Positions 18,982 through 55,681 of a DNA stretch of 55,681 nt are shown here, in pieces. The position numbers and the translations under genes are program-made. This DNA comes from a virus. The notes below the pieces were generated by a model, which saw nothing but the letters and a program-made list of their open reading frames with translations, was not told where the DNA came from and did not search any database. The stretch lies in IMG/VR virus record IMGVR_UViG_3300010885_015913, positions 1 through 55,681 of that record. One strand, written 5' to 3'. Position 1 is the first letter of the stretch, and every line of letters begins with the position of its first letter.

Positions 18982-19938
18982 ATGGCACACATGATCGCAA
19001 CCACCTCTACCGGTAAAGACGCAATGGCCTACGTTGGTGATACGCCATGGCACGGTCTTGGTCAGCAATTAACTAGCAACGCACCAATTGAAACTTGGGC
19101 CGAGGAAGCTGGTCTGGATTTCATGATTAACTCAGCAGATGTCCAGTTTCAAACTCCTGCAACAGCTTGGTCAAAAAGCTTGGTGCTGCCGTATGAAGGT
19201 AAGAAAGTTCTTTATCGCGCTGATTCTAATATTCCACTTGGCTTAGTATCTGATCGCTACAAAGTAGTGCAGCCAATGGAAGTCCTCGAGTTCTTCCGCG
19301 ATATGGTAGGTAGTATAGCCCACCTTGAAACTGCTGGTGTGTTGCGTAATGGCGCGCATTACTGGGCTTTGGCTAAAATGGATGGTGAGTTCTCCATGGC
19401 TGGCGATAAAGTTAACCAATATCTCCTCTTGGCTTCTAGTTGCGACGGCTCTCTGGCCACTCAGGCACGCCTTACTTCGGTACGTGTTGTATGTAATAAC
19501 ACTCTACAGATTGCTGCCAAGGAAAAAGGCAACGTAGTTCAAGTTCGCCACAACTCCATCTTTAATCCTGAAGCTGTTAAGTCTCAGCTTGGTGAGTTTG
19601 ACGAAGCTTTCAAAACTTTTGAGCATACAGCAAAATACCTTGCATCCATCAAGTTATCAAGTGCTCAAGCTCAGGCAGTCTTTACCAAGGTTCTTGGTGG
19701 TGATGATAAGAAGCCAAGCCGCGCAGCCACTCGAGCTCTGGCTCTCTTTGATGGCGCAGGTATTGGCGCCGAGCTGGAATCTGCCAAAGGTACAGCATGG
19801 GGTGCTCTAAACGCAGTTACTCAATTGATGGATTGGGAAACAGCTCGTACACCAGATGCTAGAATGGCCAATGCTTGGTTTGGTGGCGGTGTTAATGTTA
19901 AGGCAAAGGTCGCCGAAGAATTACTGGCCTTGGCATAA
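18982..19938 (+). CDS. DUF932 phage/plasmid-like protein
   Basis: 318 residues matching the DUF932 (TIGR03299) plan: an N-terminal TPWHGLGQQL motif, then LVSDRYKVVQPMEVLEFF, VRVVCNNTL in the middle, and an alpha-helical C-terminus with TRALALFDGAGIG. Found on many phages and plasmids; the biochemical role is not established. It is a monocistronic unit with its own promoter and leader box, suggesting high early expression. The start is supported by the GAAAGG site 10 nt upstream. Confidence 0.8.
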   Translation: MAHMIATTSTGKDAMAYVGDTPWHGLGQQLTSNAPIETWAEEAGLDFMINSADVQFQTPATAWSKSLVLPYEGKKVLYRADSNIPLGLVSDRYKVVQPMEVLEFFRDMVGSIAHLETAGVLRNGAHYWALAKMDGEFSMAGDKVNQYLLLASSCDGSLATQARLTSVRVVCNNTLQIAAKEKGNVVQVRHNSIFNPEAVKSQLGEFDEAFKTFEHTAKYLASIKLSSAQAQAVFTKVLGGDDKKPSRAATRALALFDGAGIGAELESAKGTAWGALNAVTQLMDWETARTPDARMANAWFGGGVNVKAKVAEELLALA

Positions 19939-21771: not shown

Positions 21772-22010
21772 TGGAAATCTATTTGGTTTATAACTACGAC
21801 ACTCTTGTAGCCGTAGCCGATACATCTGAAATGGCTCAACATTTAGCAATGGATTTTGAATATAGTGTTGGTGCTGATGATTGCGAAATGTATTGTGTTG
21901 CTCATCATGTTAATGAGTGGGTTGATGAGATCAAACCTCATACTGCGCCTGACAAAATCCTTTGGGGTGACATCATTTGGAAAAGCTCAAACGTGGAGAC
22001 AACAGAATGA
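21771..22010 (+). CDS. Small acidic early protein, unknown function
   Basis: 79 residues (MEIYLVYNYDTLVAVADTSE...), alpha/beta, acidic, with HHVNEWVDEIKPH in the middle. Overlaps both neighbours (1 bp and 4 bp). Its size and opening 'IYLVYNYD' resemble small phage proteins of unknown role; nothing further can be said. Confidence 0.55.
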   Translation: MEIYLVYNYDTLVAVADTSEMAQHLAMDFEYSVGADDCEMYCVAHHVNEWVDEIKPHTAPDKILWGDIIWKSSNVETTE

Positions 22011-22411
22011 CTTACTTCGACGCAGTTGGTGCGTTTAGATCTAAGATGGGGCTGCCTATATCTATAGACCCCCATCTATTACCTGCGAGTGAGGCATCAT
22101 ACTTTGCTCGTTTTATCATGGAAGAATTATCTGAGTACTTACGTGCATGTGAGGAGAATAGTCTTGTTGACGCTGCGGACGCTGTTATTGATCTGGTCTA
22201 TGTTGCCCTTGGTTGTGCTCACGCCATGGGAATACCTTTCGATGAATTATTCGGCGTTGTCCACCGCGCTAATATGGCTAAGGAACCTGCTAATGAGTAT
22301 TTGCGCTCTCTAAGAGGCAGTCAATACGATGTTATTAAGCCTCCGGGCTGGACTGCACCTGAAGGTGAGATGTGGGCCATCATTCAAACTAAACAGGCCA
22401 ACGCAAAATGA
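22007..22411 (+). CDS. MazG-like nucleotide pyrophosphohydrolase
   Basis: 134 residues from ATG 22007 (ATGA overlap). It carries the all-alpha NTP-pyrophosphatase signature: EELSE (E39, E40, E43), then DAADAVIDLVYVALG (D55, D58, D62) and VHRANMAKEP. This superfamily includes MazG, HisE-like enzymes and dUTPase/dCTPase of T4-like phages. It hydrolyses a (d)NTP to (d)NMP and pyrophosphate; the substrate is not predictable here. With the hydroxymethylase-like enzyme at 30133 it could act as a dCTPase that feeds base modification, or simply in ppGpp/NTP control. Confidence 0.75.
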   Translation: MTYFDAVGAFRSKMGLPISIDPHLLPASEASYFARFIMEELSEYLRACEENSLVDAADAVIDLVYVALGCAHAMGIPFDELFGVVHRANMAKEPANEYLRSLRGSQYDVIKPPGWTAPEGEMWAIIQTKQANAK

Positions 22412-28114: not shown

Positions 28115-28327
28115 ATGTCAGAGGCAAAGACGCGTCGTTACGCAAACAAGAAAGCAATCATTACACTTTTAGCTGAAAACAATCCTAAGCGCCAAAACAC
28201 ATTGGCCTATGATCGTTTTGATTTATATAAAAGCGGTATGACAGTTGCTGAATACCTTGAGCAAGGTGGTCGCTCTGGTGATATTAACCATGATGTTGAA
28301 ATGGGCTTTATTTCATTGAGTGAATAA
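28115..28327 (+). CDS. Conserved small phage protein (GMTVAEYL type), unknown function
   Basis: 70 residues from ATG 28115, with AAGGAG at 28101-28106. The pattern NPKRQNTLAYDRFDLYKSGM then TVAEYLEQGG...DINHDVEMG is shared by many small phage proteins of unknown role. Its 1-bp overlap couples it to the glycosyltransferase-like gene. An upstream in-frame start overlapping the helicase exists but lacks a ribosome binding site. Confidence 0.7.
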   Translation: MSEAKTRRYANKKAIITLLAENNPKRQNTLAYDRFDLYKSGMTVAEYLEQGGRSGDINHDVEMGFISLSE

Positions 28328-29217
28328 TGAAGATCTTAATAACCGGCGTCACTGAGACGCATACAAATCATCCTGATCGAGCAAGCTCAACTAAGTTTGT
28401 ATCTATTCCCGAATTGATGCGTAATGCGTTCGAGCGGTTAGGGCATGAGGTACATCATCAAGCAATACATCAAGGTGATGATCTTTTTGATTACGACAAA
28501 GTTTTTATTTATGTCTACCCACTAGATCATAATGCATTAAACGCTGATGGCGCTATATGGGGATTAGTACAACGGCCTGATGCCTATATTTGCTTAGATG
28601 ATTGGTCTTTCCAAAATGTGATACCTACATGGGAAACCAAGATTAATGCTGATGCTTTAACTCAACGTACATGGTTGGCACCATTATTTCCATGGGGTGA
28701 TACCAAACAGATGGGGTTGCCGGTTGATGACATACGTCATTGGGACCCATCACCTTTATATAAACTACCTTTGTGCAATAAGTATCAGTGGGATAAGCGC
28801 AAAACAGAGTGGTACAACGCATCATTTTCAAAGGAAGCTCATGAATGGGCCGCAGCACAGCAACTTAATTGGCCTATACATTCCGTGGGTGGAAAGTCAC
28901 TTGGACAGCCAAGGCTCTTGGAGTCTCAGATTGTGTGGGATTACGGGCAATATAAAGGCGTGCTTTGCCCTACTTACGCACATGCAGGATGCGGATGGTG
29001 GAGAGTTAGATACCAGCATGCTGCTCATGCAGGAGCTATACTCGGTAGCGATCCTAAAGAAACAGGAGTCATACATCCGGCGTATGGCTATACATTAAAA
29101 GAAATAGAAAAAATGAGCGATGAGGCGAGAGATTATCTTGCATGGCTACAAGCAGACAAGTTAAAAATAGCCACATTGCAAGAAACATTAAAAAAAGTCG
29201 AAAGGTGGTTGGAATGA
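28327..29217 (+). CDS. Glycosyltransferase-like (GT-B-fold-like) protein
   Basis: 296 residues. The N-terminal MKILITGVTETH, then FVSIPELMRNAFERLGHEVH, looks like the first beta-alpha-beta of a Rossmann/GT-B domain. The C-terminal GWWRVRYQHAAHAGAILGSD resembles the donor-domain segment of phage glycosyltransferases. No DxD motif is evident. It is the first gene of a coupled set with the kinase (4-bp overlap) and the hydroxymethylase-like enzyme, so a sugar transfer to a hydroxymethylated base is a reasonable hypothesis. Family assignment is from pattern only. Confidence 0.5.
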   Translation: MKILITGVTETHTNHPDRASSTKFVSIPELMRNAFERLGHEVHHQAIHQGDDLFDYDKVFIYVYPLDHNALNADGAIWGLVQRPDAYICLDDWSFQNVIPTWETKINADALTQRTWLAPLFPWGDTKQMGLPVDDIRHWDPSPLYKLPLCNKYQWDKRKTEWYNASFSKEAHEWAAAQQLNWPIHSVGGKSLGQPRLLESQIVWDYGQYKGVLCPTYAHAGCGWWRVRYQHAAHAGAILGSDPKETGVIHPAYGYTLKEIEKMSDEARDYLAWLQADKLKIATLQETLKKVERWLE

Positions 29218-30158
29218 TCATAATTCTCGAAGGACCAGATGGTGGTGGTAAAACCACATTGGCTGAGAGACTTCGTCAATTTTTTGGTACACATCGTATG
29301 GCGCATGTTATGAAGCATGGCCCATACATAGGTATGTCAACTGAAGATTTGTGTAAGACATACTTTAGATCTATGACTCAAGCTCTTACGTATGACGATC
29401 ATGTTATCATGGATCGATCATGGCTATCTGAGCCTATTTACGGTACAGTCTATCGCAATGGCGTTAATCGCGTAGATCTACCTAGGCGGCGTATGCTAGA
29501 GCGTGTGGCATTATCTAGAGGCGCAGTAGTGGTGCATTGCCAACCTGATTTATCGTTGTGTGTTGATACTTTTAAGCAGCGCAAAGGTATTGAGTATCTT
29601 GATAACACAGAACAGCTTGGAGCTGTATATGAGGCATACGAAACGCTCCCACAGCATACTTGCCTTCCAGTTGTGCATTATGACTACGAAAAGAGTGCAC
29701 TGGAGTCCCTCGTTCAAACTCTTATGGATAGATCTACATCCAATAGGGCTTCTGGCGGTGGCAGTTTTAAGCAGGGTAACATACTTATGCTATGCGATAA
29801 GGGGCCAAGGACGAATATTAAAGCATCCGCAGCTGTTGTGCCTTTTATTAACTTCCTCGATGAAGATGGCCCTAGTCGTATGTTGGCAGATACGTTAGAG
29901 CGTGAAGGCATACCTGAGAGTGATTTGTACTGGATCAATACTCAAACATATCAAGGCACCCCTACAGATTCATCTTTTATGAAAGACTTACAGCCTAGTA
30001 AAATCTTTGCCTTAGGCAATAATGCCTATGCATGGGCTCTTAATAATAACGTACAAGCATATAAGTTACCGCCGCCTCTATATCACATGCAGAACTTTCC
30101 GCATCAACCTTATCATGTAACAGAAAGCGACTATGGAAATACCACTCATTCATCGTGA
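29214..30158 (+). CDS. Deoxynucleotide kinase fused to a uracil-DNA-glycosylase-like domain
   Basis: 314 residues from ATG 29214. Residues 1-175 are a P-loop dNMP/thymidylate-kinase-like domain: EGPDGGGKTT (6-15), MDRSWLSEPIYGTVYRNG (66-83, DR-W-SE lid/base region). Residues 188-293 form a second domain with the UDG-superfamily pattern: ILMLCDKGP, FLDEDGPSRMLADTLEREGI, DLYWINTQ, LQPSKIFALGNNAYAWAL, PPPLYH. Family-4 catalytic motifs (GE-PG and HPS) are not clearly present, so the second domain may be inactive or a binding module. It likely phosphorylates a deoxynucleotide made by the neighbouring TS-like enzyme. Confidence 0.75.
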   Translation: MIIILEGPDGGGKTTLAERLRQFFGTHRMAHVMKHGPYIGMSTEDLCKTYFRSMTQALTYDDHVIMDRSWLSEPIYGTVYRNGVNRVDLPRRRMLERVALSRGAVVVHCQPDLSLCVDTFKQRKGIEYLDNTEQLGAVYEAYETLPQHTCLPVVHYDYEKSALESLVQTLMDRSTSNRASGGGSFKQGNILMLCDKGPRTNIKASAAVVPFINFLDEDGPSRMLADTLEREGIPESDLYWINTQTYQGTPTDSSFMKDLQPSKIFALGNNAYAWALNNNVQAYKLPPPLYHMQNFPHQPYHVTESDYGNTTHSS

Positions 30159-30918
30159 AGAAGATCTTATCCTCCTCTATAAAGCACTCGACTATCGTGG
30201 AACAGAGTCCAACCCGCGGGGTGAAGGCACGAAGGAAATTGAGAACTTCACTTATTCTCTTGGGCCTTTCGTGCGCTTTAACTCTTTTATTGGTCGTAAC
30301 TTCAATCTTAATTATCTTAAGCGTGAAATGGCATGGTATATAAAGGCAGACCCTTTTGATACTTCCATTGCGACTCATGCAGCACAGTGGGGTAAGATCG
30401 TTGTCAATGGCAAGCTAAATAGTAATTATGGTAGCTATTGGTTTGGCAAGTATGGCGTAAGGCATATTGTTAGGTTGCTGCAAAAAGACCCAATGAGTCG
30501 TCGAGCAGTCATCCCTATGTTTGGAACTGACATCGATCACATGGATGAAGATGCCAAAGATGTGCCTTGCACTCTTGCTATTGAGTTTCGTTTGCGTCGT
30601 AGTAGGCTTAATGCAAGAGTCATTATGCGTAGCCAAGATATTCTATGGGGCATGGCTAATGATATACCTACCTTCTCATTCTTACAAGAAATCATTGCAG
30701 TTCTTCTTAACGCTGAAGTAGGCTCGCTAACTATATCAGTTGGCTCATTTCATGTTTACGAATCAAGAATGAAGATGTTCAAAGATATATTAGAAAAGCA
30801 ACAGCATATCCCAGTGGCAGACAAGCCCCCAAGGATTCAAAGGTATGAAGCCCACATGTTAATGGATAAGCATATTGATACTGCGCACCCGTTCTCACGT
30901 TGGCTGCTTGATGTATAA
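30133..30918 (+). CDS. Thymidylate-synthase-family dNMP hydroxymethylase-like enzyme
   Basis: 261 residues. TS-fold landmarks: NSNYGSYWFG (96-105), SRRAVIPMF (122-130, phosphate-binding Arg pair), VPCTLAIEFRLR with catalytic Cys146, MRSQDILWGMANDI (165-178) and SFHVYE (His207, Tyr209). At the position of the TS Asn that reads the pyrimidine ring there is Asp177, as in T4 dCMP hydroxymethylase (Asp179), not the Asn of thymidylate synthases. So 5-hydroxymethyl-dCMP production is a fair prediction; dUMP substrates cannot be excluded. The gene starts inside the kinase gene (26-bp overlap). Confidence 0.8.
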   Translation: MEIPLIHREEDLILLYKALDYRGTESNPRGEGTKEIENFTYSLGPFVRFNSFIGRNFNLNYLKREMAWYIKADPFDTSIATHAAQWGKIVVNGKLNSNYGSYWFGKYGVRHIVRLLQKDPMSRRAVIPMFGTDIDHMDEDAKDVPCTLAIEFRLRRSRLNARVIMRSQDILWGMANDIPTFSFLQEIIAVLLNAEVGSLTISVGSFHVYESRMKMFKDILEKQQHIPVADKPPRIQRYEAHMLMDKHIDTAHPFSRWLLDV

Positions 30919-45775: not shown

Positions 45776-47449
45776 TTAGTAATTTAGTTTAAGAATAACG
45801 ATACCTGAACCGCCTGATTTAGCCCCTGAGCCGTGCGATCCGCCACCGCCACCACCTGTGTTAGCAGTTCCGTTTGCTCCTGTTGTGGTGCCTCCATACC
45901 CATTGCCACCGCCGCCTACTCCACCAATACCCCCATTAGGAGCTGATGGACTGTGGTACGCACCACCGCCGCCGCCAGCATAAATTACAGATTGACCAGT
46001 AATTGCAGAAGATAATCCAATGCCACCATAACCAGCATATGTAGAAATTGTTGTTGTATTTTGACCAACAGACCCTGCTCCACCACCGCCCCCACCACCA
46101 GCTTGAGGCGCACCATTTCCACCGTTATTTCCTTGTGAACCATATATTGCAATACCGCCTGTTGTAATACCAGCAGAAAATCCACCACCACCACCTGACG
46201 CACCATTTCCACCGTTAGGGCCAGATGCGCCAGTGCCACCACCTCCGCCACCATACGAAGTAATTGTGTAAAAAGTAGAATTCCCCCCAGCAGTGCCAAT
46301 TACACCATCTGAATCAGAACCCGGGCCGCCGTTGCCAACAGTAATAGTTGACGAGTTTCCAGCAGTTACGGCATAAGCAGTGCCAGCTAAAAAACCACCC
46401 CCACCGCCGCCTCCAGCACGACCACCACCTCCACCACCACCTATAACCAAATAATCCACGCTAGTAACACCAGCAGGTATCGTATATGACTGTGTAGATG
46501 TAAAAGAAACAGAGCTAATAACAGGGGCTACGTATCTGATGATGACTATACCGCTGCCGCCAGCGCCGCCTGTACCACTTCTGCCACCGCCGCCACCTGA
46601 CCCAGTATTTATTGTTCCAGCACTACCTGATGTATTCCCGCCACCATTACCTCCGATACCAGAACCACCTGTACCAGCTGTCCCTCCACTGCTACCTCCA
46701 CCACCCCCAGCGTAAGTAACAGATGAACCAGTAATTGTTGATGCTTGCCCAGCACCGCCATTACCACCTTGTGGAGCAGTTCCAGCGTTACCTACTGCGC
46801 TAGCACCTCCACCACCACCGGCATTAAAATCACCAGTATAAGAATTGCCGCCATTAAACCCTTGATACGCTACAGCAGGAGCGCCGTAACCACCGGCAGA
46901 AGGTGCGCTAGGCGTGTTTCCAGCGCCTCCTGTTGCGCTTTGCGACGCAGCACCGCCGCCAGAACCGCCAGCAAAACCGGGGCCACCTTGACCCGGAGGA
47001 AGGAAACCTCCACCAGCGCCTCCACCAGCAGAATTGATAGAAGAAAAAACTGAATCAGTACCATTTTTGCCGTTGTTTGCGACCGTGTATGTAGGCGCAT
47101 CATTGGCTCCACCACCACCACCACCGCCAACAGTAACAGCGTATGTAGTGCCGGGTACAACAGTTAAAGCAGTTCCTGTTCTAAAACCCCCAGCACCGCC
47201 TCCACCGCCTGTATGACCTCCACCTCCACCGCCGCCAGCCACCACCAGATAATCCACCTGCGTAACACCAGCAGGTGCAGTCCAGTAGCCAGAAGCAGTA
47301 AAGCTTTGTATAACAGTCGAGCCGATACCGGGCCACACGCCTGAACGGATGGCTTGCAAAGCTTGGTTTAACGTCCACACACCTGACGCTTGCGTTGTAG
47401 ATATTGTTATCGGAGCCTTGGTGATAATCCGACCGGGATAATTACTCAT
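45776..47449 (-). CDS. Glycine-rich adhesin-like tail protein, paralogue 1
   Basis: 557 residues. N-terminal attachment part (SNYPGRIITKAPITI, about 1-45), then two Gly-rich units, each opening with VDYLV(V/I)(A/G)GGGGGGG and closing with GGSGIVI. Runs of GGGGG and Gly-Gly-x motifs are the hallmark of polyglycine-helix receptor-binding domains such as T-even gp38 adhesins. It is a likely host-recognition or fibre-tip protein. It is paralogous to the next gene, from which it is separated by 8 bp. Confidence 0.75.
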   Translation of the reverse strand: MSNYPGRIITKAPITISTTQASGVWTLNQALQAIRSGVWPGIGSTVIQSFTASGYWTAPAGVTQVDYLVVAGGGGGGGHTGGGGGAGGFRTGTALTVVPGTTYAVTVGGGGGGGANDAPTYTVANNGKNGTDSVFSSINSAGGGAGGGFLPPGQGGPGFAGGSGGGAASQSATGGAGNTPSAPSAGGYGAPAVAYQGFNGGNSYTGDFNAGGGGGASAVGNAGTAPQGGNGGAGQASTITGSSVTYAGGGGGSSGGTAGTGGSGIGGNGGGNTSGSAGTINTGSGGGGGRSGTGGAGGSGIVIIRYVAPVISSVSFTSTQSYTIPAGVTSVDYLVIGGGGGGGRAGGGGGGGFLAGTAYAVTAGNSSTITVGNGGPGSDSDGVIGTAGGNSTFYTITSYGGGGGGTGASGPNGGNGASGGGGGFSAGITTGGIAIYGSQGNNGGNGAPQAGGGGGGGAGSVGQNTTTISTYAGYGGIGLSSAITGQSVIYAGGGGGAYHSPSAPNGGIGGVGGGGNGYGGTTTGANGTANTGGGGGGSHGSGAKSGGSGIVILKLNY

Positions 47450-47457
47450 CGTTCACC

Positions 47458-49179
47458 TTATGAATATAATCTTAGGATAACTATGCCAGAGCCACCTAGA
47501 CCACCAGAACCGGGGCCTCCGCCAGCTCCGCCACCGCCACCGCCACCAGTATTGGCAGTTCCAGAGGTTCCATTTCCTCCACTGGGACTAGCGCCAGCAC
47601 CGCCACCGCCAAGACCACCTGCACCGCCTGTTGCGTTATACGACCCGCCGCCGCCGCCGCCAGCATAGTAAACACCAGACCCAGAAAGACCGGACGCTAA
47701 ACCAGCGCCTCCAGCACCCCCAATTGCAGAAGCGCTGTAATTTGGATAAATTGTGCTTCCTTGATAACCTGAAGAACCCGCGCCGCCGCCGCCTCCGCCG
47801 CCGCCATTTACTCCGTCAGCGCCAGCATTTCCTTGACCACTTGTACCAGCAAGGCCAACAGTTTGACCAGCAGGTTGACCTGAAAGTGGGCTACATCCAC
47901 CACCGCCAGAACCGCCAGTTGTTGCTACAGCAGCACCACCACCTAATCCGCCGCCAGTTGCTGTAATAGATGCAGGTGCGCCGATTGAAGAATCTAATCC
48001 AGCGGTAGCACCGTTATATGTACCTCCGGGAGTATTACCGCCAACGCCGCCAGAACCAACAGTAATTGTGTATGTACCAGAAACAGAAAGCCCTACACCT
48101 GCTTTAAATCCGCCAGCACCACCTCCACCACCCCAACCATAACCACCACCACCGCCGCCAGCAACTACAAGATAATCTGCTGTTGTAAAGCCAGAAGGTA
48201 TTGTGTAGGTAGTAGTCGCATTAAACGTAACGATAGTAACTTTAGGTTGTTGGTATTTAAGAATGACTATGCCTGAACCGCCAGCAGCGCCAGCGTTAGG
48301 TGGTCTATTTGTACCGCCCCCGCCCCCGCCAGAATTACTGCCACCCGCGCCCCCTCGATCTCCCGAGGCTGATGTTCCAGATGTTCCATTTTTCCCCGGG
48401 TTATACCCGTCACCACCAACACCACTTATGCTAACAGGACTGCCCAAATTATCACAACCACCGCCCCCACCGCCGCCGCCTACACCACCATTCCCGCCAT
48501 ACGATTGAGAGCCAGCCGAAAATATTCCGCCGCCGCCGCCGCCAGCAAAATAGTAACCAGCACCAGCAAGAGCGCTGGCTAAACCTGCACCACCCGCGCC
48601 AGCTATTAATGTTGTTACTTTATTTTGCCCGACACTACTTGCACCGCCCCCGCCAGCAGCCGTAGAACTATCTGAAGTTCCTCCAGCATTACCTTGACCA
48701 GCAGTACCTGCTCCTGCCGCCGCACCAACAGCCCCGCCGCCACCTGAACCACCAGACGTAGCAGCAGCAGCACCATTAGCGCCTGCACCACCTCCGCCGC
48801 CAGTTGCTGTAATAGATGCAGGTGCGCCGATTGAAGAATTAACCCCAGCACCACCAACTGTACCAATGACCCCCGCGCCACCACTACCAACAGTAATTGT
48901 GTACGAAGTGCCGGGAATCACGGCTAAACCTGAACCTGTAAGAAAACCACCTGCGCCTCCGCCAGCACCGTTAGATGAACCCCCAGCGCCGCCGCCAGCT
49001 ACAACCAGATACTCTACAGACGTAACACCTTGAGGGCATACCCACGTAGATGTTGCATTAAATATCTGTACAACGGTAGAAAAGCCTTTGTTAAGACTAG
49101 TCAAATTCCAAATAGCCGAACTCAGCGCGGTAGGCGTAGTACCACTTATTATCTGACCGGGATAACCATGAATTGCCAT
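47458..49179 (-). CDS. Glycine-rich adhesin-like tail protein, paralogue 2
   Basis: 573 residues, same plan as 45776-47449: MAIHGYPGQIISGTTPTAL N-terminus, then units with VEYLVVAGGGAGG and ADYLVVAGGGGGGYG, with closing segments GGSGIVILKY and GGSGIVILRLYS. Units in both paralogues contain the linker SSIGAPASITATGGG in this copy. Strong sequence conservation in strand openers with divergence in Gly loops suggests diversification of receptor specificity. The Gly-rich coding makes this stretch GC-richer than its surroundings. Confidence 0.75.
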   Translation of the reverse strand: MAIHGYPGQIISGTTPTALSSAIWNLTSLNKGFSTVVQIFNATSTWVCPQGVTSVEYLVVAGGGAGGSSNGAGGGAGGFLTGSGLAVIPGTSYTITVGSGGAGVIGTVGGAGVNSSIGAPASITATGGGGGAGANGAAAATSGGSGGGGAVGAAAGAGTAGQGNAGGTSDSSTAAGGGGASSVGQNKVTTLIAGAGGAGLASALAGAGYYFAGGGGGGIFSAGSQSYGGNGGVGGGGGGGGCDNLGSPVSISGVGGDGYNPGKNGTSGTSASGDRGGAGGSNSGGGGGGTNRPPNAGAAGGSGIVILKYQQPKVTIVTFNATTTYTIPSGFTTADYLVVAGGGGGGYGWGGGGGAGGFKAGVGLSVSGTYTITVGSGGVGGNTPGGTYNGATAGLDSSIGAPASITATGGGLGGGAAVATTGGSGGGGCSPLSGQPAGQTVGLAGTSGQGNAGADGVNGGGGGGGGAGSSGYQGSTIYPNYSASAIGGAGGAGLASGLSGSGVYYAGGGGGGSYNATGGAGGLGGGGAGASPSGGNGTSGTANTGGGGGGGAGGGPGSGGLGGSGIVILRLYS

Positions 49180-55411: not shown

Positions 55412-55681
55412 TTAAGCTTGTGTAACGCCAAGGGCGCCAACACGAGTTGCATTAGGGCCTACAGCAATTGCTGGCAGGGCTATTCCCATCACAAGACGTT
55501 TGATGCCATCTGCCGCCGAGGAGGGCAAATAAGTACCACGCACATCACCTGTGGTTGTGGTGGCCGTCAATGTAGCGGCAACAGTCATGGTGCCAGCATC
55601 TTCAGCCAAAGTATTGTCCCAGCCCGCACGGGTGACGTAGCCCCTATCAGTGATACGCAATGGCGCACCCAAGATGTCGGT
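55412..55681 (-). CDS. C-terminal part of the virion protein that crosses the contig ends
   Basis: Continues the frame of 1-781. On the circle the junction is at 55608/1, with residues 1-260 encoded on the left part; the whole gene is 978 nt (325 residues). This part reads [20 protein letters not shown] and ends VGPNATRVGALGVTQA. The start codon lies at 781 in the left piece, and any start inside this segment (such as the TTG in the overlap) is an artefact of the cut. Confidence 0.85.
   Translation of the reverse strand, partial: TDILGAPLRITDRGYVTRAGWDNTLAEDAGTMTVAATLTATTTTGDVRGTYLPSSAADGIKRLVMGIALPAIAVGPNATRVGALGVTQA
55609..55681. repeat. Right copy of the 73-bp terminal overlap
   Basis: Identical to 1-73. 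Removing one copy gives a 55,608-bp circle with an intact open reading frame across the junction. Confidence 0.95.

Follow-up and report, generated by a model that had tools for sequence, protein, structure and literature searches.

What does a small virus do with three overlapping genes for a sugar transferase, a nucleotide kinase and an enzyme resembling thymidylate synthase? The question is raised by IMGVR_UViG_3300010885_015913, a virus record of 55,681 bases that was analysed over its whole length and is called the window below. A first-pass annotation had proposed that the three genes, at positions 28327-30918, form a functional unit that makes a hydroxymethylated deoxynucleotide and then glycosylates it in DNA. 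Our results support this proposal, and we consider it likely that the cassette replaces genomic cytosine by glycosylated 5-hydroxymethylcytosine (hmC). The argument is carried by the active-site signature and tree position of the thymidylate synthase (TS) family enzyme, and by a glycosyltransferase (GT) whose GT-B fold is nearest to the beta-glucosyltransferase (BGT) of T4. The genes in question, including one that lies apart from the cassette, are as follows:

28327..29217, + strand: GT-B glycosyltransferase of 296 amino acids, phrog_14998, predicted hmC-DNA glycosyltransferase (fold and profile match to T4 BGT)
29214..30158, + strand: two-domain kinase of 314 amino acids, predicted kinase of 5-hydroxymethyl-deoxycytidine monophosphate (5hm-dCMP) (phrog_761, E 5e-19; AlphaFold2 model; PDB fold matches)
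30133..30918, + strand: TS-family enzyme of 261 amino acids, predicted dCMP 5-hydroxymethylase (PF00303, PDB matches, tree)
22007..22411, + strand: MazG-family nucleotide pyrophosphohydrolase, predicted dCTP pyrophosphatase (PF01503)

The three cassette genes are intact open reading frames (ORFs) on the same strand, in the order GT, kinase, TS-family enzyme, and the coordinates and tight overlaps of the first-pass annotation were confirmed: the GT and kinase genes share 4 bases (ATGA), the kinase and TS genes 26 bases. The mechanical ORF of the kinase begins at 29142; the start common to all relatives is 29214. A search of IMG/VR with the kinase led to 65 loci. All IMG/VR relatives that cover the region have exonuclease, VRR-like, helicase, small gene, GT, kinase and TS in this order, and the gene overlaps are conserved in every such relative inspected, therefore the cassette is not a product of chance.

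The TS-family enzyme matches PF00303 (E 7e-19). Its best sequence matches in the PDB are the CMP hydroxymethylase MilA (E 1e-15) and the dCMP hydroxymethylase of T4 (2e-14), with all thymidylate synthases ranking lower. Cys146, Thr147 and Asp177 (E. coli numbering) are invariant in 35 orthologues, and they are placed in the window by two codons:

30568..30570, + strand: catalytic Cys146, the next residue being Thr147 in place of His (orthologue alignment)
30661..30663, + strand: Asp177, which is Asn in dUMP-specific thymidylate synthase (orthologue alignment, tree)

The same Asp177/Thr147 signature is present in T4 gp42, Xp15 and AXL3; the ordinary TS proteins of Effie, phiAS4 and E. coli retain His147 and Asn177, and Effie and phiAS4 offer an internal contrast as each encodes a D-type plus an ordinary N-type enzyme. 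An Asn-to-Asp exchange at 177 makes dCMP the preferred substrate instead of dUMP, and a metagenomic association study ranked 177 and 147 above all other positions for their link to modified cytosine (PMC8670742). Our maximum-likelihood analysis makes Xp15 plus Effie the sister group of the window clade (92/89), which joins T4 gp42 (91/90), while E. coli ThyA and the N-type enzyme of Effie separate (100/100). Ultrafast bootstrap values for the hydroxymethylase grouping are 91-92%, with several long branches, and we take the tree position of these sequences as support for a hydroxymethylase, not as proof. Given both the active-site residues and the phylogeny, the prediction that the enzyme adds a hydroxymethyl group to dCMP is strongly supported. 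The hydroxymethylase-like features seen in the first-pass annotation are thus borne out, and the enzyme stands apart from ordinary thymidylate synthases. A MilA-like ribonucleotide pathway was also considered and was rejected, by inference only, in view of the phage replication context.

The GT gave no match in Pfam, in NCBIfam or in sequence searches of the PDB (phmmer), and its only family match is phrog_14998, whose function is unannotated. The AlphaFold2 model (pLDDT 89, pTM 0.88) is more informative: ranks 1-5 of the PDB fold search are all T4 BGT (E 8e-8 to 3e-6, TM-score by query 0.56-0.61), and the remaining GT-B enzymes follow below. Among predicted viral structures its own family comes first, then an entry of 351 residues, the length of T4 BGT. 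The gene had been called GT-like from its letters, and profile search and structure model both agree with this; the accompanying remark that no known hmC glucosyltransferase could be recognised by eye holds for sequence searches, but not at the level of the fold. Against the lone T4 BGT sequence the GT profile gave a weak hhalign result, which became stronger once a BGT family profile had been built. The extended GT family profile matches this BGT profile with P 6.7e-6 and a score of 48.7 that none of 100 column shuffles attained (shuffled maximum 22.0), and the significant local match spans the N-terminal part. A full-length hhalign alignment was obtained with A8, a global alignment with A5 being unsuccessful. 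It places D92 of the GT on D100 of T4 BGT, which we take to be the catalytic aspartate, and R228 on R269, presumably a contact of UDP; E272 has no counterpart. The aligned residues of the GT are located here:

28600..28602, + strand: D92 codon, invariant across the extended family, aligned with D100 of T4 BGT
28996..29010, + strand: motif W224-W225-R226-x-R228, invariant across the extended family, R228 aligned with R269

We conclude that the GT is a remote homologue or a close structural analogue of T4 BGT. Because of its fold, its catalytic residue and its operon we infer that it glycosylates hmC in DNA.

Both parts of what had been noted as a deoxynucleotide kinase with an extra domain are present, and we read the extra domain as uracil-DNA glycosylase (UDG) superfamily-like. 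The AlphaFold2 model of the kinase (pLDDT 86, pTM 0.86) shows two separate domains, of which the first, residues 1 to ~174, is a thymidylate-kinase-like P-loop domain (P-loop GPDGGGKT) with its best PDB fold matches in YorR/TMK (E 4e-7). The second is the following:

29775..30122, + strand: UDG-superfamily-like C-terminal domain, residues ~188-303 (weak PF03167, profile of fusion homologues, F211/N242)

PF03167 is the commonest weak match of this domain (7 of 11 members, best E 0.009, below the cut-off); a profile search of the PDB returned nothing and direct hhalign comparison with E. coli Mug alone was uninformative. When the corresponding domains of AXL3, PW916, ctUtU524 and DSL-LC01 were compared with a profile of family-4 UDGs, P was 4.4e-5, none of 100 shuffles scored as high, and the GE, PF, N and HP motifs fell into register. 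AXL3-type domains retain GE and HPQ, whereas the window clade has lost GE and HP and has CD...GP and PPPLY instead. It keeps the acid D195 and the base-pocket residues F211 and N242, both invariant in the clade; we take F55 and N82 in the Sulfolobus enzyme (numbering of PMC11078745) to be their counterparts. The domain of the window clade may bind rather than cut. Recognition of a pyrimidine base, by which wrong bases would be told apart or removed, is its probable role and the least certain part of our interpretation.

A MazG-like pyrophosphatase had been pointed out in the same early block, and its ORF does match PF01503 (E 8.6e-16) and phrog_671 (E 3e-23). The gene lies ~6 kb upstream of the cassette, at a similar distance in the relatives compared, and was found in 16 of 16 long relatives. 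The protein shares 41% identity with AXL3_30 and 36% with Xp15 gp38, each of which has a D177 enzyme as its neighbour; in AXL3, PW916 and Xp15 the hydroxymethylases are accompanied by MazG proteins of this same subfamily. By analogy we predict that it is the functional counterpart of the gp56 dCTPase of T4.

Taken together, these genes suggest the following route. The MazG-family enzyme would hydrolyse dCTP to dCMP, and the TS-family enzyme would then hydroxymethylate C5 of dCMP using methylene-tetrahydrofolate, the step for which active-site residues and phylogeny argue most strongly. The kinase domain, whose fold is seen and whose substrate is proposed, would produce 5hm-dCDP, the host would convert this to 5hm-dCTP, and the phage polymerase would incorporate it. 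Finally, the BGT-like GT would flip hmC in DNA and attach to it the sugar moiety of a nucleotide sugar made by the host. UDP-glucose would be the simplest donor, and the final sugar may not be glucose. The expected outcome is a block of restriction and possibly of CRISPR nucleases.

Similar gene sets are found in other phages. The kinase-UDG fusion of AXL3, PW916, ctUtU524 and DSL-LC01 immediately precedes an Asp177 enzyme; in the first three, MazG, the fusion and the D177 enzyme are consecutive and a dCMP deaminase comes next, and the genome of DSL-LC01 combines the fusion and D177 TS with dCMP deaminase and the GT family. The annotation of ctUtU524 lists a TIGR03299 phage/plasmid-like protein close to the kinase-TS cluster (L148, 2671-3663). 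AXL3 (L147, 5971-7744) is of special interest: its TS, gp28, has Asp177 and Thr147, its kinase, gp29 (AXL3_29), bears the UDG-like domain, and of 37 restriction enzymes only 2, both with A/T-only sites, cut its genomic DNA, the 35 others having G/C in their sites (PMC7504290). The authors of that work placed the genes of this cluster in thymidylate synthesis. We think that gp28 and gp29 probably explain the resistance. In the Pelagibacter phage HTVC200P (L235, 4001-5279) a stand-alone kinase gene overlaps a D177-type TS gene, and from these sequences we predict modified cytosine in this SAR11 phage.

Distant relatives of the GT occur in genomes with a D-type TS (phiAS4, BlueNGold, ctIqW946, DSL-LC01 and FBB1). 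A gene for UDP-galactopyranose mutase adjoins the GT in phiAS4 (L150), C48C1 (L152), DSL-LC01 (L185), FBB1 (L238) and a Bacteroidetes contig from a metagenome-assembled genome (L198); the window and 12 relatives, all searched for it, lack this gene. The adjoining mutase suggests furanose transfer in the larger phages that have it, and its absence from the window virus suggests a host-supplied sugar. One may go further and propose that the GT represents a new class of DNA glycosyltransferases that put a non-glucose sugar on hmC, which might be a furanose and would yield a base not yet described, and that the kinase-UDG protein is a quality gate that phosphorylates 5hm-dCMP only and rejects or cleaves uracil-type bases. 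On present evidence we find this extension rather unlikely.

Several results weigh against glycosylated hmC. The virus is known from a metagenomic record, and its base chemistry is predicted from genes. No dCMP deaminase was found in the window or in the 6 relatives tested. The TS tree supports of 91-92 are not decisive, and the UDG-like domain of the window clade, taken alone, does not match the UDG profile significantly (3/100 shuffles). The GT has no pairwise similarity to BGT by simple sequence search and is, by sequence, not a member of the BGT family; other GT-B enzymes, too, come to a TM-score of ~0.6 (SenB 0.58), and GT-B enzymes for surface glycans are among those that match the model. 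The inspected cluster of AXL3 has no GT, therefore the resistance of this phage supports a modified base, not a sugar, and the PW916 cluster likewise holds kinase, TS and MazG and no GT. The cyanophage-like C48C1 carries the GT family and the mutase with no TS-family gene detected, as do four C48C1-type contigs (some of them fragments) as regards the missing TS-family gene, therefore a link between this GT family and hmC is not universal.

The points concerning the GT could also mean that hmC DNA is made and the GT acts elsewhere, on a host surface polysaccharide or a virion protein, leaving hmC bare or otherwise modified. We judge this improbable. The GT gene overlaps the kinase gene and is never apart from the hydroxymethylase in ~65 relatives, the nearest solved fold is that of an enzyme acting on hmC in DNA with the catalytic Asp aligned, and the Bacteroidetes contig, which from its genes looks viral, pairs a gp42-type enzyme with a GT, together with dCMP deaminase and the mutase, within 4 kb (L198, 6144-10090).

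A second alternative is that the TS-family enzyme is a dCMP methylase and that the DNA contains 5-methylcytosine, as in phage XP12. N177D alone makes thymidylate synthase 5mdCMP-forming (cited in PMC8670742), but in our tree the enzyme groups with T4 gp42 and with that of Xp15, whose gene adjoins a 5hmC-type carbamoyltransferase gene, and the linked GT requires a hydroxyl acceptor, which makes a methylase very improbable. A third possibility gives the kinase-UDG fusion a role on DNA, i.e. that it flips the base and phosphorylates the hydroxymethyl group to give a hypermodified cytosine, like the 5hmU DNA kinases of thymine-hypermodifying phages. A glycosylase-like fusion does stand just before the hydroxymethylase wherever it was seen (the window clade, AXL3, PW916, ctUtU524 and DSL-LC01), and a UDG-fold protein acting on glucosyl-hmC, the reader Brig1, exists (PMC11078745); yet in Xp15, Effie and HTVC200P the kinase beside the TS stands alone and has the usual size of a deoxynucleotide kinase, as suits an enzyme acting on nucleotides, and the GT suffices as a final step, so we would be surprised if this were the case. 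Ordinary thymidylate supply by a thymidylate synthase, a thymidylate kinase and an unrelated gene, as annotated in AXL3 and as the automatic labels have it (phrog_160 for the TS, phrog_761 for the kinase, Pfam), is hardly credible and was rejected: ThyX was not found in the window or in the 6 relatives tested and the window virus has no second ThyA, but D177/T147 are invariant, the tree position is that of a hydroxymethylase, and separate enzymes are kept by AXL3 and Xp15 (ThyX) and by Effie (N-type ThyA).

The remainder of the window is that of a phage of ~55.7 kb. The record is probably a complete genome assembly because a direct terminal repeat of 73 bases is present at both ends (1-73 and 55609-55681), and genes for portal, terminase, DNA primase and DNA polymerase A are present. 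Positions 18982-19938 encode a DUF932 protein (phrog_1221). The genes at 45776-47449 and 47458-49179 both match phrog_2295/phrog_863 (tail fibre assembly) and are apparently tandem paralogues.

If glycosylated hmC is indeed made here, a modification best known from large T4-like phages would extend to widely sampled small aquatic phages, in a set of four genes that does not include dCMP deaminase. The unannotated family phrog_14998 obtains a testable function; our profile scan found 512 IMG/VR stretches that encode relatives of the GT. The kinase-UDG fusion recurs in phages with a dCMP-type enzyme, and the cassette offers a likely explanation for the so far unexplained resistance of AXL3. Such DNA bears on escape from restriction and CRISPR, on type IV and glycosylase-type defences, and on sequencing and enzyme bias in viromes.

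Our literature searches found no description of the cassette in the open-access library, which is itself incomplete. The closest functional model is the hmC pathway of T4 (gp56, gp42, gp1 and BGT), which has the same four steps as predicted for the window virus. The window TS has a gp42-type active site, the GT has the BGT fold with an aligned catalytic Asp, and the genes for gp42 and BGT are neighbours in T4, too. There are also clear differences. Firstly, the pyrophosphatase of the window is of the MazG/PRA-PH type and its kinase is TMK-like with a UDG-like domain. Secondly, the GT belongs to another sequence family, and in the genome of ~55.7 kb no dCMP deaminase was found. Xp15 and Effie have the closest TS proteins (40% and 36% identity), the same MazG subfamily and a kinase gene that adjoins TS, but a carbamoyltransferase replaces the GT (the 5cmdC type of the MetaGPA study) and the kinase lacks the UDG-like domain. 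AXL3 and PW916 share the row of MazG, fusion and D177 TS and differ in having an S-adenosylmethionine methyltransferase in place of the GT, a dCMP deaminase and, in AXL3, ThyX. DSL-LC01 combines the fusion, the D177 TS and the same GT family, but its GT lies ~7 kb away beside the mutase, has only ~28% identity, and is accompanied by dCMP deaminase. A phage with a sugar other than glucose on hmC is known as well, since RB69 carries an arabinosyl group (PMC6024577). The T4 pathway is established, and the novelty here lies in the family of the GT, in the fused kinase and in the group of viruses that carries them.

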